Source of the DNA: Lacihabitans soyangensis
GTDB lineage: Bacteria > Bacteroidota > Bacteroidia > Cytophagales > Spirosomataceae
Reading direction: 5' to 3'
DNA length: 64,000 nt
Assembly: GCF_024343775.1 (NCBI RefSeq)
Contig: NZ_RJUF01000181.1
Span: 62,001-126,000, forward strand
Shown: piece by piece, positions 3,808-47,216 of the stretch
How the letters are laid out: every line of letters starts with the position of its first letter
Position numbering within the stretch: the first letter of the stretch is position 1
Position numbers and translations under genes: made by a program
Notes under the pieces: generated by a model
Database searches by the model: none
What the model saw: only the letters and a program-made list of their open reading frames with translations
What the model was told of the DNA's origin: nothing

Positions 3808-4324
3808 GTTTGAAGCTATAGGCTGTCTTGTCCAACTTAAGGGTACCGTTGTTGAAATCATTGATAAATTTCTCAATTACCTCAACGGTAACTTCCTCAA
3901 CATTTAACGCTACATCCAAGCCAATTCCGTACTCAAAGTCCATATCAATTTCACAGAATTCGGCTACTTTTACAGTTTCCTCGTCTTCCATTTCTTCAAT
4001 AAGTTCTTCAATCATCTGCTCGGCTTCCTCATTTACTTTTGCACCTTCGGCTCTTTCCTCAAAAGGAACATAGTCTTTGTATAATTTAGCTACTTTCGCC
4101 TCTGCCTCTTCATACAATAAACTACTATGGTGAAGCGATAACGTACTCAAAAGTGCGTCATAAATCACTTCTTTGCCATTGTGTTTCCCCACAAACTGAA
4201 AATGAGCAAACTCATTTTCATCGGACATGTCTTCTTCATCTTCTACTAAGACAAAAATTTGATCCTCTTCTTCACATTCAGCTTTTAGCTGTTCAATTTC
4301 CTCTTCTTTGTATCCGTCGTTCAT
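3788..4324 (-). CDS. Highly acidic protein of unknown function
   Basis: A 178-residue soluble protein with an extreme excess of Glu and Asp, especially in the first 30 residues and around 95-120 (EEAEQMIEELIEEMEDEE). No signal peptide or membrane segment is visible. I do not recognise a named family. Its ATG overlaps the last base of the glnN stop (TAATG), and its 3' end overlaps rsmE by 20 bp, so it is locked between a nitrogen gene and an rRNA methyltransferase gene. The context says it is expressed with GSIII but does not prove a functional link. Confidence 0.75.
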   Translation of the reverse strand: MNDGYKEEEIEQLKAECEEEDQIFVLVEDEEDMSDENEFAHFQFVGKHNGKEVIYDALLSTLSLHHSSLLYEEAEAKVAKLYKDYVPFEERAEGAKVNEEAEQMIEELIEEMEDEETVKVAEFCEIDMDFEYGIGLDVALNVEEVTVEVIEKFINDFNNGTLKLDKTAYSFKHGFDED

Positions 4325-40200: not shown

Positions 40201-40362
40201 GATTTTTTGGAAGATAGAAAATTAAACACAAAGTTTTTATTTAATTGAATGGTTAGAAATCCTACAATTTGGGTATTACTTATCTTTAAATTTGAGGATA
40301 TTTAATGGCTAGAGGTTTACATTCAATCAATCACCAAAGTTCGTATTTATGCTTCAGCTTGG

Positions 40363-40397
40363 AAATGACAGATATCTGTCATTTTTTCCTATATTTG
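40363..40397 (+). promoter_or_regulatory. 22-bp palindrome abutting a -7 box upstream of the LuxR-type regulator
   Basis: A perfect 22-bp palindrome (40363-40384, half-site AAATGACAGAT) lies 5 bp before TATATTTG (40390-40397), which fits the -7 consensus. The palindrome therefore covers the -33 region of a promoter for the gene at 40479, whose leader would be about 75 nt. This is the layout of an operator. It could fold into a hairpin, but no upstream plus-strand gene needs a terminator. Confidence 0.5.
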
Positions 40398-40478: not shown

Positions 40479-41270
40479 ATGAATGTACTCAGTCCATTGT
40501 CTGTTCATGAGTTTATAGAAATTGCCAAAAATGAAAATGAAATAATGATTGGCGATTTTGTGTCTTATTTCCAAAACCAAATTGAAGAAGCATCTAATTA
40601 CGCAATTGGACCCTATTTTTGGTTCATTGGTGATAACTCTACACTTATGATTACGGCAGCTAGTCAAAATATAAACGAGCTTACACCCTATCAACATGAA
40701 GCTTGGACGAAGGGAAATACATTCTTTTTTGCTGAAAATATTCACCCCGATGACCGTTTTTTTGTTCTGTCGGCATTTAAACTAGCTGTTGAAAAAATAG
40801 AACTATTACCCTTGGAGCGTCAATCCTCGGTGAGACTAAATATATATGCCAGAATGTTGAACGCCAAGGCTGAATATCGGTGGGTGTTAATTCAAATGCC
40901 CCGCCTGTATATCAACGAAAAAGACCGCACCACTGTTGGTTTTATACTCGTCACTGACCTCTCACACCTTGAGTTTCTGAAAAGACCGACTTTGATGACC
41001 CTTACGGATAAGGTGAACAATCAAAATCAGTACTTTCATATTGCTGAAGATCTAAAAGAGCTCGTAGTGGCGGATTTACCAAATATCACAAAAAGAGAGC
41101 AGGAAATAGTAAACTTAATGGCCAAAGGTCTTAATTCACCGGCTATTTCAGAAAAACTCTATTTGTCGTATCATACCGTTGAAAACCACAAGCGAAATCT
41201 CAGAAAAAAGACCAACACTAAGACTTCTGCCGAACTCATCGATTATGTTTGGAGAAACAACCTCATTTGA
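40479..41270 (+). CDS. LuxR-type transcriptional regulator with PAS-like sensor part
   Basis: The 263-residue protein ends with a clear LuxR/GerE helix-turn-helix (about 200-260), ITKREQEIVNLMAKGLNSPA followed by ISEKLYLSYHTVENH. Residues 60-180 look like a PAS-type fold (EAWTKGNTFFFAENIHPDD and YRWVLIQMPRLYI), as in Bacteroidota regulators with a PAS module in place of a phosphoreceiver. It is the only plus-strand gene in a run of minus-strand surface-protein genes and has a palindrome at its promoter. Ligand unknown. Confidence 0.85.
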   Translation: MNVLSPLSVHEFIEIAKNENEIMIGDFVSYFQNQIEEASNYAIGPYFWFIGDNSTLMITAASQNINELTPYQHEAWTKGNTFFFAENIHPDDRFFVLSAFKLAVEKIELLPLERQSSVRLNIYARMLNAKAEYRWVLIQMPRLYINEKDRTTVGFILVTDLSHLEFLKRPTLMTLTDKVNNQNQYFHIAEDLKELVVADLPNITKREQEIVNLMAKGLNSPAISEKLYLSYHTVENHKRNLRKKTNTKTSAELIDYVWRNNLI

Positions 41271-41318: not shown

Positions 41319-41654
41319 TCAATTCATTCCACTATTCCTCCAAGCTTTCTCCATTCTTCTTGAGAAAACGACTTTCTTATCTCCTGGCAAAAAAAGCGTT
41401 TGATCTTCTATCTTTTCCACCAAATCTATATTCACCACACTTTGGCGATTGATTCTCACAAAATTCTTAAAAGGCAAAAGGCGATTTTCAATGATTTTGA
41501 GCGTAGTAGAACTTAGTATTTTTTTGCCATCTGACAAAAGAATATTGGTATAGTTCAAGTCTGCCTCCAGATGTAAAATGTCACTTGGTGCGAGGTATTT
41601 GCGACTGCCCACATGTACCTGTGGACAGTTTTCGATGTATTTTATGGTTTCCAT
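41319..41654 (-). CDS. Stand-alone LytTR DNA-binding regulator
   Basis: A 111-residue protein made of little more than a LytTR domain: SRKYLAPSDILHLEADLNYT, LKIIENRLLPFKNFVRINRQ and VVNIDLVEKIE. There is no receiver domain, so it is controlled by its own expression level or by a partner. It lies 10 nt after the secreted-protein gene at 41665 and is thus probably made from the same mRNA as two surface proteins, under the dyad-containing promoter at 43721-43768. Confidence 0.88.
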   Translation of the reverse strand: METIKYIENCPQVHVGSRKYLAPSDILHLEADLNYTNILLSDGKKILSSTTLKIIENRLLPFKNFVRINRQSVVNIDLVEKIEDQTLFLPGDKKVVFSRRMEKAWRNSGMN

Positions 41655-41664
41655 GACATTTGAT

Positions 41665-42921
41665 TTATTCAGTATAAGTAACTACTACTTTTATTGGTCT
41701 ACTTAGTATATTGCCACTATTGGTTGGATTATTATAAACTCTGATGTTGACTGTGTTAATTTCTGTGTCAAATTGTCGCTCTGTAAAATGGGTATGACCA
41801 CTTTTAACCCAAACGCCCCCACCTGCAACTTCCACCAAAACAGAGTAATCGATAATTTTAGAGGCAGTTAAACCATGAGGAAAGCTCGAATCGCTACCTT
41901 CGGTAGCTCCCGTGGTACTCGTTATGGTTTTCATTTTAATTTTTGGTGCTGATGGCTCACTACCCATTTTAGTAAAACCTGCTATTTCAACATTTCCGTT
42001 ACCTTTCAGATCAAGAATGGGTGTGGATCCGTTATAATCAAAAGAAAGAAAGTTATTGGCGGCAGTGCCGCTGTTCAAATTAAAGTATTGTCCAAAATAT
42101 CTACTTCCCGCTATGTTGGTCATTTTTATCATTCCATTGTTGGCATCCACGGCAGTTATTAGATTAATATGAGGTTTTACAAAACCGCCTTCTGTATCAT
42201 GGAATATCTGAAACCTGGCGGTTGGAGCACCTCCAAATAAGCTATTAATGCCAACATTTCCGGTTGGTGTGATATTCATTGTAGGGACGTTGTTTGCTCC
42301 CAGAAAAAGTTGAGTATTTTCTTTGTTGATTATTCTGGCAGCATTCGGATGAAGCAAATCATTATTTCCTAATATTTGTAATTCCAAGCCGTCGGTATCC
42401 AAATCACCAGTAGACGCTGTTGTTAATTTTACACTGGCTATCGTGGCGGTATTATTTTCATGCACATGAAGATTTTTTGTTTCAGTTGAAATACCTATTC
42501 CTACTTTCGCATTGGGGTTTAAAGACATTGATGGATAAGTCACATTTCCATAATTAAATTGCATGAAGTCATCAGTAGTTGAACCGCCAAATACATCGCC
42601 TCTAATATCCCAAAATCTGTCATTAGAAGGAGTGGAAGTTTGACTTATCATTCTAATTCTTGGATAATTACCACCGGTTTCCTTTAATAGTAAATGTACT
42701 TTTGAAATATAATTTTCAGGACCTGCAATTTCATGAAAAGCAGAAAAATTTGTAACAGCTACACTTTTTGCTCCTAATCCCCTTTGTGTAGAAATTTTAG
42801 ATTCAGATAGAGATTCTACGTTTGTATTTGGGGATACGGTATATGTTGCTTCATTACCTTGTTGGGCAAAAACAGATGCAGAAAATGAAAGAAAAATGAT
42901 AGAATAAATAATTTTTTTCAT
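41665..42921 (-). CDS. Secreted tail-fibre-like protein of unknown function
   Basis: A 418-residue protein with a Sec signal (cleavage near SVFAQ, 20), a beta-rich middle with typical tail-fibre-like phrases (NPNAKVGIGISTETKNLHVH, TPTGNVGINSL, GNGNVEIAG) and a C-terminal domain of about 90 residues (from KIKMKTITSTTG). It lacks an S74 autoproteolytic domain and a type IX secretion tag that I can recognise. It lies 18 nt downstream of the secreted protein at 42940 and 10 nt upstream of the LytTR gene. Confidence 0.72.
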   Translation of the reverse strand: MKKIIYSIIFLSFSASVFAQQGNEATYTVSPNTNVESLSESKISTQRGLGAKSVAVTNFSAFHEIAGPENYISKVHLLLKETGGNYPRIRMISQTSTPSNDRFWDIRGDVFGGSTTDDFMQFNYGNVTYPSMSLNPNAKVGIGISTETKNLHVHENNTATIASVKLTTASTGDLDTDGLELQILGNNDLLHPNAARIINKENTQLFLGANNVPTMNITPTGNVGINSLFGGAPTARFQIFHDTEGGFVKPHINLITAVDANNGMIKMTNIAGSRYFGQYFNLNSGTAANNFLSFDYNGSTPILDLKGNGNVEIAGFTKMGSEPSAPKIKMKTITSTTGATEGSDSSFPHGLTASKIIDYSVLVEVAGGGVWVKSGHTHFTERQFDTEINTVNIRVYNNPTNSGNILSRPIKVVVTYTE

Positions 42922-42939
42922 GATACTTAATATTTAATA

Positions 42940-43686
42940 TTATTTGATTTGATATGTTACTGTTACCGGAAAAAACTCAATTTTCACAATTCGGGTGTCG
43001 TCGTTACAATTATCATCATTACTGATATCATCGCCACCAGTGTCGCCTACTACATGGAAAAATTTCACAAGTGTTCCTTCCGTAGCAGGAACTTTTATAA
43101 CGGTATTTCCATGATTAATGGCTGTATTTATTAAGGTCTTCAAAGCTGCTCTGTCTTCTCTTTTGATGCCGTGCATCTCAAATATCTTTTTTTCGATATC
43201 TACGCCGTCCAGAAAAGTATGGAATGCATTGGCAACGTCTTGACCTGGTAACAAAAACTGAAATCCTGCAGCTGGACTAATAAATTGGGTTCTTGAGGCC
43301 ATATCAGAATTTATGGCTGTGATTTTTTTGCCATATGGCACATCAAACACTTTTTTTGACCATTTCCCTGAAGTTGTGCTGAAGTCTTGGACAGTTTCCA
43401 CTGCCGAAAAAGTAATTTCTGCCCATATTTCGGTTCCATTGTTGGCCAATCTTAACTTAACTTCGGACTTCACTTTTGGTCCGTTGCCACCAAATTCTTT
43501 GTCGCCACGTTCCAATCTGCTCGGGCAAAGCCATTCATCGATGTCTTCTAGTTTGATAGTTTCCTGACCGATTGCTTTAGTAGCTACTCCTGCCTTCAGA
43601 ACAGATTTATTTGTTGGACTCAAAACTTGTGCATTAGCCCAGCTAAAAATAAATATACCTAGAAACAGTATTAATGTTGTTTTCAT
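42940..43686 (-). CDS. Secreted protein of unknown function, first gene of the LytTR operon
   Basis: The protein has a Sec signal (MKTTLILFLGIFIFSWANAQ) and about 228 mature residues with no recognised domain. A run with GDTGGDDISNDDNCNDD near the end is Asp-rich and might bind calcium. I prefer the ATG at 43686; another ATG four codons upstream (43698) is possible. It is preceded by the first of three dyad promoters and followed closely by a tail-fibre-like gene and the LytTR regulator gene. Confidence 0.72.
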   Translation of the reverse strand: MKTTLILFLGIFIFSWANAQVLSPTNKSVLKAGVATKAIGQETIKLEDIDEWLCPSRLERGDKEFGGNGPKVKSEVKLRLANNGTEIWAEITFSAVETVQDFSTTSGKWSKKVFDVPYGKKITAINSDMASRTQFISPAAGFQFLLPGQDVANAFHTFLDGVDIEKKIFEMHGIKREDRAALKTLINTAINHGNTVIKVPATEGTLVKFFHVVGDTGGDDISNDDNCNDDTRIVKIEFFPVTVTYQIK

Positions 43687-43720
43687 GTTTGACAGCATTT
43701 TTTGATAAATAATTATGTCT

Positions 43721-43768
43721 CAAATTTCCGCCAAAAAAACACGCCCGTCAATTACATGATGATGTAAT
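43721..43768 (-). promoter_or_regulatory. Dyad-controlled promoter 1 (secreted protein-LytTR operon)
   Basis: On the minus strand the dyad ATTACATCATCATGTAAT (43751-43768) is followed after 22 nt by GAAATTTG (43721-43728), one mismatch from TAnnTTTG. The start codon of the operon is 34 nt further on. The same layout recurs at 44513-44560 and 47169-47216. Confidence 0.6.
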
Positions 43769-43796
43769 AGCCTATAAATAAACAACTTGCAGAAAC

Positions 43797-43835
43797 AAAA
43801 AAAAACTCACATTTCCTTTGAAAGAAAAATGAGTT
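43797..43835 (-). terminator. Terminator of the response regulator gene
   Basis: On the minus strand AACTCA pairs with TGAGTT, with partial inner pairing, and a run of T follows. It separates the response regulator gene from dyad promoter 1. Confidence 0.65.
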
Positions 43836-43863
43836 CTTGAATAAAATGCGAGAATATTTTGAA

Positions 43864-44496
43864 TCAAATAATTTTTTCCAAGATAGCTTTGGCAACAGCC
43901 TCGGTTTGAGAATGTACATGGAGTTTTTCGTAAATATGCTTTATATGTGCCCTTACGGTATCGATACCAGTGCCAATCTGACTTGCTATCATTTTGTAAC
44001 TGAGGCCTTTTACCAAATTCTCCAAAACCTCTTTTTCTCTTTTAGTGAGTTGATAATCATGAGTTTGAGTATTTTTTACAGACATAAACTCCAATACTTT
44101 TCGGGCAATTGAAGCCGTCATGGGCACACCGCCCTGATGTACGTTCAGTATGGCATCAACTATTTGGCCTGGAGGGGTTGATTTTAAAAGATAGCCATTA
44201 GCACCTAATTGCAAGGCCTCAAAAATATGCTCTTTGCTGTCAAATACGGTTAGCATCACAATCTGAATGTCTTTGGAAAGCTTACGTACGGCTTGAATAC
44301 CCATAAATCCATTGGCAATGGGCATGTCAATATCCATCAGAATAACATCAGGTTGGAGAGTTTTTACATGAAAATCAACGTCTTGGCAGTTTTCATAGGC
44401 ACCTAAAAGCACTATTTCAGGAGTACTTTCAAGCAGAAACGACAAGCCCGAGCGTAATTTCTCGTTGTCTTCGAATAACATTACTTTGATGGGCAT
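43864..44496 (-). CDS. NarL/FixJ-type response regulator
   Basis: A 210-residue regulator: receiver domain with phosphorylatable Asp55 in DVILMDIDMP, conserved Thr in VMLTVFDSKEH and Lys in GYLLKSTPP, then a LuxR/GerE helix-turn-helix (about 148-210) with LTKREKEVLENLVKGLSYKM. It is 60 nt downstream of the histidine kinase gene and is the evident partner. Dyad promoter 2 overlaps the kinase stop, so the regulator can also be made from its own transcript. NarL-type regulators bind inverted repeats, which fits the three dyads here. Confidence 0.94.
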   Translation of the reverse strand: MPIKVMLFEDNEKLRSGLSFLLESTPEIVLLGAYENCQDVDFHVKTLQPDVILMDIDMPIANGFMGIQAVRKLSKDIQIVMLTVFDSKEHIFEALQLGANGYLLKSTPPGQIVDAILNVHQGGVPMTASIARKVLEFMSVKNTQTHDYQLTKREKEVLENLVKGLSYKMIASQIGTGIDTVRAHIKHIYEKLHVHSQTEAVAKAILEKII

Positions 44497-44512
44497 GGCG
44501 TTGTTTTTTTTG

Positions 44513-44560
44513 CAATTTTACAGATTATTTTTCAATTGATATATTACACGATGATGTTAC
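44513..44560 (-). promoter_or_regulatory. Dyad-controlled promoter 2 (response regulator gene)
   Basis: On the minus strand the dyad GTAACATCATCGTGTAAT (44543-44560) is followed after 22 nt by TAAAATTG (44513-44520), one mismatch from TAnnTTTG; the ATG is 16 nt further on. The dyad overlaps the stop codon of the histidine kinase gene. Its distal half is less conserved than in the other two copies. Confidence 0.5.
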
Positions 44561-45627
44561 AATGGAATAACCAACACAACGGATGTTCCTTGATTTTTGA
44601 CGGAAATGATATCTATTTTCGCATTTATAAGAGTAGCTCTTTTAGTCATGTTCAAAATTCCGTTACCATTTCCTTTTAATGAGGTATCAAAACCAACACC
44701 ATCGTCAATAATTTCTAATACTAGATTACGCTCTTCGTTAGTTATTCTGACTGTTACGTAGCGAGCTTTTGAATATTTAGCTGCATTATTGATGGCTTCC
44801 TTAAAAATCATGTAAAAATCGTAGTATTTCTGAGAAGTCCACTCCAAATTTCCCAGTTTCTGGCTTGTTGTGAGTTGATAATCAATATCTTTTGGCTCTA
44901 AAACTTTACCAAGAAACTCATTCATTCTCACCGTTAACTGCTCAAAATTGTCATTCAACGTTTTATTGGTCCAAACAATATCACTCATATTGTCTAATGT
45001 TTCTTGTGCATTTTCAGAAATTTGCACCAAAAGCTTTTTCGTCTTTTCAGGAGCTTTTTCAAGGTTGTTTTTGGCAGCCTGTGTTAAGATTGCTATGCTG
45101 CTAAGTGTAGATCCAACATCATCGTGCAAGTCTCTGGCTATTTTGTCTTGTACTTTTAAAGTTTTCATTTTTTGTCGAAAACGATACAGAAAAAACAAAT
45201 AAAATACCAAACCAATTACCGTGAAAATATAGAGCATGATGGATGGAATAAACCACCATTTTTGCCAAAAGGCGGCCTTTATAGTAAACTCAAGAGACTT
45301 TTCAGCATTATTATTTTTATTCTTTACTGTAAAAACATACTTCCCTCCGTATAAGTTGGAGTAACTCATAAAACCTTGTGAGCCAATCGGAATCCAAGCG
45401 ATATTGTCAGAACCTTCCAGTTTTATTTCGAAATTAGGCAAAGTCTTTTCTGAAGAATCCAAAAAGCTAATACCAATATGTTGGGGTTTGTAATCTAAAA
45501 CAATAGGCTTATTGCAATCAAAAAACGAGCTATCATCAAATATCTGAAATTTGGTAAAATGGATAGTTGATTGTCCGTAACAACTCGTAATGGACATGAA
45601 GACACAAATAAGAATTCGGGATTTCAT
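44557..45627 (-). CDS. DesK/NarX-type sensor histidine kinase
   Basis: A 356-residue kinase: Sec signal (1-19), a Y_Y_Y-like extracytoplasmic module (about 45-117) as found at the end of two-component propeller sensors, one transmembrane helix (about 125-148), a HisKA_3 dimerisation domain with phospho-acceptor His168 in ARDLHDDVGST and a HATPase domain with KEAINNAAKYSKA, IIDDGVGFD and GNGNGILNM. The beta-propeller repeats normally before Y_Y_Y are missing. The ATG at 45627 gives a proper signal peptide; the longer frame overlaps the upstream membrane-protein gene. Partner is the downstream response regulator. Confidence 0.9.
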   Translation of the reverse strand: MKSRILICVFMSITSCYGQSTIHFTKFQIFDDSSFFDCNKPIVLDYKPQHIGISFLDSSEKTLPNFEIKLEGSDNIAWIPIGSQGFMSYSNLYGGKYVFTVKNKNNNAEKSLEFTIKAAFWQKWWFIPSIMLYIFTVIGLVFYLFFLYRFRQKMKTLKVQDKIARDLHDDVGSTLSSIAILTQAAKNNLEKAPEKTKKLLVQISENAQETLDNMSDIVWTNKTLNDNFEQLTVRMNEFLGKVLEPKDIDYQLTTSQKLGNLEWTSQKYYDFYMIFKEAINNAAKYSKARYVTVRITNEERNLVLEIIDDGVGFDTSLKGNGNGILNMTKRATLINAKIDIISVKNQGTSVVLVIPL

Positions 45628-45667
45628 CAAGTTTTGACTAAGTGTAAAGTAAATTATACAAATAGGT

Positions 45668-46318
45668 CTAAACCACCAAACTTGTATGGTATTTTTTGGT
45701 TTTCCAAAACCCGACACACAGTAAAGCAATTTTAATGAATCCAAAAACTGGCGTGATGTAATCCCAAAGTATAAAGAAAAATTGGCGGTTGACGGCATAA
45801 AGCCAACCATTCGCTACAGCCAACAAAAAGTCAAATATTACATAAATGAGCGTACCTAAAACAATCCAAAAAAGCGGATAATTTCGCAAGGATTCTACCT
45901 TTTCATCTTTAAGAATTTGGCTCAAAGCAAGTATCAGAAAAACCGTCATCAACAAATCAGAAACTCCAAAAAGGTATTGGTTCATGTAAATTCCGTGAAC
46001 AGCAATGTCTACACAAATGCCTGACAAATATATAATTAGAGCATATACAACCAATCTTTTATTCCAAACAGAAGTAAAAATACAGGTAAAAAAGAAGGCT
46101 CTGAAAATAAAATTGGTAGCGGCATTGATATAAATCATGAAATGATTATTTATACCTTTTTCTCCCAATTTAATGGAAATTAGGCCATATATGCTGGCCA
46201 TAATCATTCCACCCAAGTACCATTTTAAGCCTTTTTCAAGGAATTTCAAATGAAAAAGTGCAATCAAAATTGGCAAAAACTCGGCATACGAAGATATTTG
46301 ATATAGCCAGTCGCTCAT
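45668..46318 (-). CDS. Polytopic membrane protein of unknown function, cotranscribed with the two-component system
   Basis: A 216-residue protein with six or seven hydrophobic helices and few charged residues between them. No family is recognised by eye. It begins 2 nt after the upstream secreted-protein gene and ends 40 nt before the histidine kinase gene, so it may act as a sensory accessory for a kinase whose own extracytoplasmic part is short. Confidence 0.7.
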   Translation of the reverse strand: MSDWLYQISSYAEFLPILIALFHLKFLEKGLKWYLGGMIMASIYGLISIKLGEKGINNHFMIYINAATNFIFRAFFFTCIFTSVWNKRLVVYALIIYLSGICVDIAVHGIYMNQYLFGVSDLLMTVFLILALSQILKDEKVESLRNYPLFWIVLGTLIYVIFDFLLAVANGWLYAVNRQFFFILWDYITPVFGFIKIALLCVGFWKTKKYHTSLVV

Positions 46319-46320
46319 TA

Positions 46321-47148
46321 TTATTGTCTACAGTAAGTTGGACACGGACGAGAACCACCCATTTTGGTTAGTGGTCTATTTACAGGCTGAAAAACTGCTT
46401 CATGCAAGGCCATTCCGAGAAGTTCAACCGATTTGTTGCTTTTTATTGCTTTCAATATCAGTACTTTGTTCATGTCCCTTGTAAACCGAACTTCAATTTC
46501 CAAAGAAGCTATGTCATTTTTGACAAATCCTGATTCTGAAACCAATTTACGATATAAAACATTTCGGCCAATGAAATAACCCCTAACACCTGTTGACTTG
46601 GCAAATGGTACAATATCTTTTAAATTTTTCGAAGCAAATGGACTAATCCTTCCAAATTGTGCTTTGTCAGTACTTTTTAGAACCATGAAAGTTTTTTCAA
46701 TGCTCTTGTATCCAACCGTTGGAACCAATTCTCCTACTCTAAATATATTCAAATCCGTTTTTTCAGATCCAAATTCTATCATCAGACCCGATATTGCTTT
46801 TTCTCCAGTAAAACTAGGATCGTACAGAAATTTGGTGAGTTTATCTTTTGAAATTCTAAAGGTAGCTTCATAGGTTGTTCTATCCAAAACACTTCTTTCT
46901 ATATCTTCTCCATTATCCAAACCATTATTTATACTAGAATTCAAATCGATCACCTCTGAATCCGCCTTGATTTGTTTCGCTACGTAATCGTCATAAACCG
47001 AAAGTGCAACATTATTTTTTACAGGGCTGGCCACCTCCCTCTGAGGCTTAACTTTTTGTGCTAACGCTTCAAAATTTGCTACGAGTGTAATTAAAAATAC
47101 TGAGATGGCAATTCTACCACAGACATTTTTGTTAATTTTTATGGTCAT
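46321..47148 (-). CDS. Secreted protein of unknown function, first gene of the two-component operon
   Basis: A 275-residue protein with a signal peptide (cleavage near EALAQ, about 30) and no recognised domain. The C-terminus GGSRPCPTYCRQ holds two closely spaced cysteines, perhaps a disulfide or metal site. It is 2 nt upstream of the membrane-protein gene and directly downstream of dyad promoter 3, so it belongs to the autoregulated kinase operon. A signal-binding or target protein role is possible but unproven. Confidence 0.7.
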   Translation of the reverse strand: MTIKINKNVCGRIAISVFLITLVANFEALAQKVKPQREVASPVKNNVALSVYDDYVAKQIKADSEVIDLNSSINNGLDNGEDIERSVLDRTTYEATFRISKDKLTKFLYDPSFTGEKAISGLMIEFGSEKTDLNIFRVGELVPTVGYKSIEKTFMVLKSTDKAQFGRISPFASKNLKDIVPFAKSTGVRGYFIGRNVLYRKLVSESGFVKNDIASLEIEVRFTRDMNKVLILKAIKSNKSVELLGMALHEAVFQPVNRPLTKMGGSRPCPTYCRQ

Positions 47149-47168
47149 TTTTGGTTTTATTTATGGGT

Positions 47169-47216
47169 CAAAATTCGAGTTTTAAAAGTTAATTGTCAAT
47201 TACATGATTATGTAGT
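47169..47216 (-). promoter_or_regulatory. Dyad-controlled promoter 3 (secreted protein-membrane protein-kinase operon)
   Basis: On the minus strand the dyad ACTACATAATCATGTAAT (47199-47216) is followed after 22 nt by GAATTTTG (47169-47176), one mismatch from TAnnTTTG; the ATG is 20 nt further on. It shares TGTAATTGAC with promoter 1 beyond the dyad itself. Confidence 0.6.

Follow-up and report, generated by a model that had tools for sequence, protein, structure and literature searches.

The stretch of Lacihabitans soyangensis DNA analysed here (the window; 64,000 nucleotides (nt) within contig C181 of a 5.65-Mb genome) carries a minus-strand locus containing a HisKA_3 histidine kinase and a NarL-type response regulator. 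In minus-strand order, the locus encodes a 275-amino-acid (aa) protein, a 216-aa protein, the kinase, the regulator, a 252-aa protein, a 418-aa protein and a LytTR protein. Three dyads precede the 275-aa gene (dyad 3), the regulator gene (dyad 2) and the 252-aa gene (dyad 1), heading three predicted transcription units, and each stands exactly 22 nt from a degenerate -7 box. We find that this geometry is conserved in two genera and recurs beside related regulators, and that the recognition helices of these regulators agree with the half-sites of the neighbouring dyads. We propose that the dyads are operators through which the regulator would activate its own system.

Three dyads at a fixed distance from their -7 boxes

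43864..44496, minus strand: NarL-type response regulator, proposed binder of the dyads; recognition helix GIDTVRAHIKHIYEKL
43751..43768, minus strand: dyad 1, ATTACATCATCATGTAAT, a perfect 7-4-7 palindrome
43721..43728, minus strand: -7 box of promoter 1, GAAATTTG, 22 nt past dyad 1
44543..44560, minus strand: dyad 2, GTAACATCATCGTGTAAT; overlaps the stop codon of the kinase gene
44513..44520, minus strand: -7 box of promoter 2, TAAAATTG, 22 nt past dyad 2
47199..47216, minus strand: dyad 3, ACTACATAATCATGTAAT
47169..47176, minus strand: -7 box of promoter 3, GAATTTTG, 22 nt past dyad 3

The regulator consists of a receiver domain (PF00072, 1.2e-19) and a C-terminal GerE helix-turn-helix (HTH) domain (PF00196, 5.6e-16) in Pfam searches. 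NarL and VraR are its best matches, and its top PDB sequence match is NarL (1a04, 5.6e-29). The kinase in the same locus contains a HisKA_3 domain (PF07730, 2.6e-13).

Re-reading of the sequence confirmed the dyad coordinates and letters, the exact 22-nt spacing and the one-mismatch -7 boxes described in the initial annotation. Read in minus orientation, the full sites span 43768-43721 (site 1), 44560-44513 (site 2) and 47216-47169 (site 3), and all three -7 boxes differ from TAnnTTTG at one position. The annotation had also held that a TTTG -33 box is absent, which is correct at all three sites but needs refinement: sites 1 and 3 carry ATTG(AC), one mismatch from TTTG, which straddles the dyad edge and ends 20 nt before the -7 box, whereas site 2 has no -33-like element at that place. 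Within the window, matches to the 18-mer with up to three mismatches are confined to the three sites (five strand matches, with 0.15 expected), and none of 100 shuffles of the window reaches five.

Across the whole window genome, the pattern TTACATN4ATGTAA-N24-ANNTTTG with zero or one mismatch occurs at sites 1 and 3 only. In the other genome of the genus (the sister, G009), the dyad and spaced -7 pattern with fewer than two mismatches likewise finds only the two counterparts of these sites, both perfect. Site 2 has three mismatches to the pattern in both Lacihabitans genomes. Because the totals at three mismatches are near those of a reversed-pattern control (69 against 58 in the window genome, G000, and 57 against 54 in G009), the case for site 2 is made by where it lies and how it is conserved rather than by its rarity across the genome. 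The dyad alone, with up to two mismatches, is in slight excess over control (52 against 38 in G000, 36 against 35 in G009 and 59 against 47 in a further family genome, G111), and the plain TTACA-N6-TGTAA core is uninformative (344 against 291). Outside the locus, G000 has the dyad with one mismatch at three places. All three fall within AT-rich sequence that contigs C53 and C60 have in common, with several dyad near-matches and a repeat-like appearance. The two-component regulon proposed in the initial annotation holds for these three units. The genome scans show no wide regulon, an idea we reject because the strict-pattern totals are near control in both Lacihabitans genomes and the dyad alone exceeds its control only slightly.

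In both orthologous loci found, none of the three dyads is missing and each keeps its 22-nt distance to the box; the initial annotation had named loss of the dyads or of the spacing in such loci as evidence that would speak against it. In the sister, the dyads match those of the window at 18/18 (dyad 1), 17/18 (dyad 2) and 15/18 (dyad 3) positions, and the -7 boxes at 8/8 in every case. The sister has no 252-aa gene at this place, and promoter 1 is kept directly before the 418-aa gene. The locus of Emticicia aquatilis (L072), from another genus, also has the gene order of the window minus the 252-aa gene. Its dyads match at 16/18, 13/18 and 14/18 positions, respectively; two of its boxes read GAATTTTG and TAACATTG and the third GACATTCG, with identities of 7/8 at promoter 1, 7/8 at promoter 2 (TAACATTG) and 5/8 at promoter 3 (GACATTCG). 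The TTACA-N6-TGTAA core of dyad 3 is perfect in the sister and E. aquatilis alike, and the sequence of G111 agrees with L072.

Recurrence of the spacing and the recognition helix

A scan that ignored genes, using a blind pattern of dyad, TTGAC and -7 box with up to two mismatches, gave 13 matches in 222 family genomes, with one control match. Sites 1 and 3 account for six of the 13, two each from the window genome, the sister and G111. A further four lie in genus g12, between a LytTR gene and a related regulator 53-54% identical to that of the window, and read TCACATCATGATGTGA before GAATTTTG (three) or CAAATTTG (one); at loci L142 to L144 of this genus, a second dyad stands ahead of the regulator gene. 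The other three, in genus g8 (G069, G078 and G094; L130-L132), are mutually similar and read TTACATTAAAATGTT(A/G)TTGAC...

In 23 loci picked by protein homology, 19 through the regulator and 4 through the 216-aa protein, palindromes of other sequences stand exactly 22 nt from a box. Sixty more regulator loci, all from other genera, then formed a second set; they were taken mostly by score, before any dyad inspection, with places already in use and some further list entries omitted. Regulators were located by a recognition-helix pattern, with non-fitting helices dropped, which yielded 88 genes in 101 loci; the search zones extended 450 nt before each regulator, 700 nt after it and 450 nt on the divergent side, with nAnnTTTG as the box. 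For the 79 NarL/LuxR-type regulators in the 94 non-discovery loci, 18 matches occur at 22 nt, whereas 40 other spacings have 0.85 on average and none has more than 4. By set, the counts are 6 against 0.20, 1 against 0.07 and, for the fresh 60 loci, 11 against 0.57. The nine regulators in discovery loci have eight matches at 22 nt. When the arm gap was varied, gap 2 peaked at 23 nt and gap 6 at 21 nt, as expected if these are the same palindromes with an unchanged centre.

Counted over whole loci with nAnnTTTG, the peak at this spacing is weaker, with 16 matches at 22 nt against 2.92 in the second set. There the stricter box nAAnTTTG gives 9 against 0.85; in the first set, the latter gives 9 against 0.78, a count that is partly post hoc because this box was adopted after inspection at the discovery stage. 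In a 400-kb control from the window genome, nAAnTTTG gives 4 matches at 22 nt (mean 1.18, maximum 5) and nAnnTTTG gives 5 against 4.42. Palindromes 22 nt before nAAnTTTG stand in control stretches of this genome at L250 2054 and L246 18091 (minus), the L246 one inside an open reading frame (ORF), and may have arisen by chance or belong to other regulators. The idea that the whole class shares the layout was considered and dropped, with no clear support in 29 longer and 29 shorter loci, partly the same places, and one class-level match, L224.

The dyads of L063, L198, L335 and L338 are not among the 18, as they lie outside the drawn zones or beside regulators that the helix pattern missed. At L063, identical dyads at 4069 and 4721 (minus), ATGGCATGTTTATGCCAT, each stand 22 nt from TAATTTTG, one before a LytTR gene and the other before a 194-aa gene. 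At L198 5828 (minus), ATAGGGCAAATGCCTTAT-N22-CAATTTTG lies ahead of a LytTR gene, from which a LuxR-type gene of the same genome diverges.

Among the counted matches, half-sites follow the recognition helix of the adjacent regulator. DTVR(A/S/T)H helices accompany half-sites ATTACAT or ATCACAT, one half being degenerate in several cases, and the ETVRTH helix GTCCCAT/ATCCCAT. TVN helices accompany ACTACTA, ATCCCTA and ACCCCTA, and the TVETHRRN helix ATACTGT. TVENHKRN, the helix of a PAS-LuxR protein near the window locus, accompanies ATGACAG in both Lacihabitans genomes and ATGGCAG/ATAGCAG in L340, from another genus. In summary, DTVR goes with ACAT, ETVR with CCAT, TVN mostly with CTA and TVENH with CAG. 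Over 26 matches, discovery loci included, the mean best-half distance is 0 in the 36 pairs that share a helix core, as against 2.67 in the 289 that do not. Binding by the NarL/LuxR-type proteins would predict both the L340 case and the D/E and R/N contrasts. This tracking across paralogues lends further support to the NarL-type regulator as the probable binder, as the initial annotation had proposed, and indirectly to its occupying an inverted repeat as a dimer.

The PAS-LuxR gene has a dyad of its own:

40479..41270, plus strand: PAS-LuxR protein, proposed binder of the 40365-40382 dyad; GerE domain, PAS_3 below cut-off; helix SYHTVENHKRNLRKKT
40365..40382, minus strand: PAS-LuxR dyad, ATGACAGATATCTGTCAT, same geometry; box GAACTTTG at 40335-40342, N22 between

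The unit ATGACAGATATCTGTCAT-N22-GAACTTTG (40335-40382) faces divergent 504-aa and 453-aa genes, and dyad and box are identical in the sister (L051).

Other genes of the locus

44557..45810, minus strand: histidine kinase ORF; HisKA_3 and HATPase_c, with Y_Y_Y slightly below cut-off
45668..46318, minus strand: 216-aa protein, hydrophobic by inspection
46321..47148, minus strand: 275-aa protein, first gene behind promoter 3; signal-peptide-like start by inspection, C-terminus RPCPTYCRQ
42940..43698, minus strand: 252-aa protein, first gene behind promoter 1; signal-peptide-like start by inspection
41665..42921, minus strand: 418-aa protein, second gene behind promoter 1
41319..41654, minus strand: LytTR-only DNA-binding protein (PF04397), last gene of the promoter 1 unit

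The true start of the kinase is probably the Met at 45627, in agreement with the start of the sister's ORF. The 216-aa protein, for which a Pfam search gave no match, is 93% identical in the sister and 56% identical in E. aquatilis and is a possible sensor partner. At E <=0.001, matches to the 275-aa protein occur in 3 of the 222 family genomes, namely that of the window, the sister and G111.

CPxYC-like C-termini recur in proteins encoded directly before a 216-aa-like protein, at 46321-47148 in the window, L072 6156-6980, L147 5195-6097 and L084 516-1472, and further at L086 2133-3125, L092 2401-2841 and, by eye, L070 2817-3089. The variants are RPCPTYC, RPCPNYC, RPCPSYC, RTCPSYC and CPPYC, with CSTCPIYRPCE in L070. 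In the window, L072, L147 and L070, a kinase and a regulator come after this pair of genes. Proteins with such ends are possibly secreted ligand precursors. Five other loci from the same scan (L189, L223, L236, L239 and L254) appear unrelated.

Proposed mechanism, alternatives and meaning

We propose, with a probability of roughly 0.77, that the three dyads are operators of the regulator at 43864-44496, lying near -43 and abutting the -33 region, from which it activates weak sigma-A promoters, its own included. The neighbouring kinase presumably phosphorylates the regulator, a dimer of which would occupy the 7-4-7 palindrome. In Flavobacterium psychrophilum, the sigma-A -7 box has been mapped at -12 to -5 (PMC9723704). 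Carried over to the window, this mapping would put the dyads at an estimated -52 to -35, with the centre near -43.5, beside the -33 region. The bound dimer would contact sigma-A RNA polymerase and offset the degenerate -7 box and the poor or absent -33 box. The units so activated would be the kinase operon, the regulator's own gene and the operon of the secreted protein and LytTR protein, a local self-amplifying cassette. The initial annotation had placed the regulator in the stead of a -33 box; abutting or overlapping that region seems the better description, as sites 1 and 3 keep ATTG there. With this rewording and the smaller regulon, its interpretation as a whole finds support at the sequence level.

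Several observations weigh against this reading. At least 61 of the 79 regulators are without a 22-nt match, which means either that the layout is less than universal or that our criteria are strict. The loci are related and the 18 matches amount to about nine dyad types, one being the g12 type from discovery, for which reason Poisson values are nominal. There is hardly any signal in loci from other families of the class (1 against 0.25 and 0 against 0.12), and the first set, counted over whole loci with nAnnTTTG, has a modest peak (9 against 2.40, maximum elsewhere 5). In g12, the dyads before the regulator gene at L142 to L144 have no nAnnTTTG at 22 nt, and a kinase or 216-aa match was found in none of the four loci. 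The site 3 box of E. aquatilis, GACATTCG, has two mismatches, and the half-site at L147 (helix TVNAH) is ATAGCAA, not CTA. Finally, the correlation between helix and half-site (a Mantel r of 0.49 over 13 unique cores, with a permutation p of 2.5e-4) comes from a set that includes close relatives, in which shared descent inflates the agreement.

All the evidence pairing the regulator with the dyads would fit equally well if the same protein repressed from the same sites, its dimer abutting the -33 region, blocking polymerase and exerting negative autoregulation; the -33-like ATTG kept in contact with the dyad at sites 1 and 3 also suits such a repressor. We nevertheless regard repression as unlikely. 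Three -7 boxes that are each one mismatch off, and a site 2 without a -33-like element, suit dependence on an activator, and a single fixed upstream spacing across paralogues suits polymerase contact; repressor sites need no single spacing. That a different protein binds the dyads, for example the LytTR protein of the locus or the nearby PAS-LuxR protein, is improbable. LytTR genes often adjoin such dyads, and the PAS-LuxR gene is near the locus in both Lacihabitans genomes, but the half-sites track the NarL-type recognition helix and the PAS-LuxR gene has its separate, different dyad. Furthermore, the 14.6 kb of the Emticicia locus, which keeps all three dyads, contain no PAS-LuxR match, and L055, L058 and L059 have a dyad with no LytTR match within 10-11 kb.

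It is very improbable that the dyads act at the RNA level, as hairpins or as terminators that close genes, a role that might be suggested by the overlap of site 2 with the end of the kinase gene, the position of site 1 downstream of the regulator gene and a T run further on from site 1. Their predicted folds are ordinary (z of -0.99, 0.51 and -0.87), site 3 precedes the first gene of its unit, and nothing in a hairpin would call for a distance of 22 nt to a -7 box. Site 2 by itself is within genome-wide noise at three mismatches, as would be expected of palindromes arising by chance and selected by eye; this explanation is scarcely credible, since the sites are conserved in two genera, the blind scan retrieved related loci and the matches peak at one spacing.

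Under the preferred reading, activation by the NarL-type regulator, the system resembles known ones in part. The regulator shares the receiver and GerE HTH architecture of the NarL/FixJ family, aligns with NarL over nearly its full length and has the recognition helix VRAHIKH where NarL has VKVHVKH. NarL sites are dimeric inverted repeats with heptamers arranged 7-2-7, compared with 7-4-7 in the window dyads, and the system differs from the family in its one fixed distance from dyad to -7 box across paralogues. At class II activator promoters, the activator overlaps or abuts the -35/-33 region. The fixed 22 nt at three window sites and 18 others, with a dyad centre estimated to lie next to the -33 region, would suit this class; the difference here is a Bacteroidota sigma-A promoter with nAnnTTTG, often with G in first place. 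Bacteroidota sigma-A promoters have TAnnTTTG at -7 and TTTG at -33 (PMC7366714, PMC9723704). The predicted window promoters have -7 boxes within one mismatch of this consensus, and differ in having a palindrome at a fixed distance and no TTTG at -33. Our literature search, whose coverage excluded most subscription journals, found neither a description of this layout nor an operator for a NarL-type regulator of Bacteroidota.

The regulator itself is an ordinary NarL-type protein; what is unusual is that paralogues whose operators have diverged share one frozen distance, and that the helix and the half-site are legibly linked. We give even odds to a broader view, in which many NarL/LuxR-type regulators of this Cytophagales family share a promoter class, each with its own 7-4-7 palindrome 22 nt before a weak nAnnTTTG. 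A few helix residues, the one preceding TV and the one following it, would set half-site bases 4 and 6-7, and the cassettes would duplicate with new specificities while the geometry stays frozen. If this is true, the operators of unstudied regulators would be predictable from the protein. Bacteroidota genomes contain many NarL-type regulators, and the window genome has 17 GerE genes. The fixed geometry and the helix/half-site correspondence would allow regulators to be paired with targets from sequence, and the natural variants form a ready panel for studies of DNA reading by the GerE recognition helix. The layout also points to a way in which activators may cooperate with a sigma-A that has a weak -33 element.

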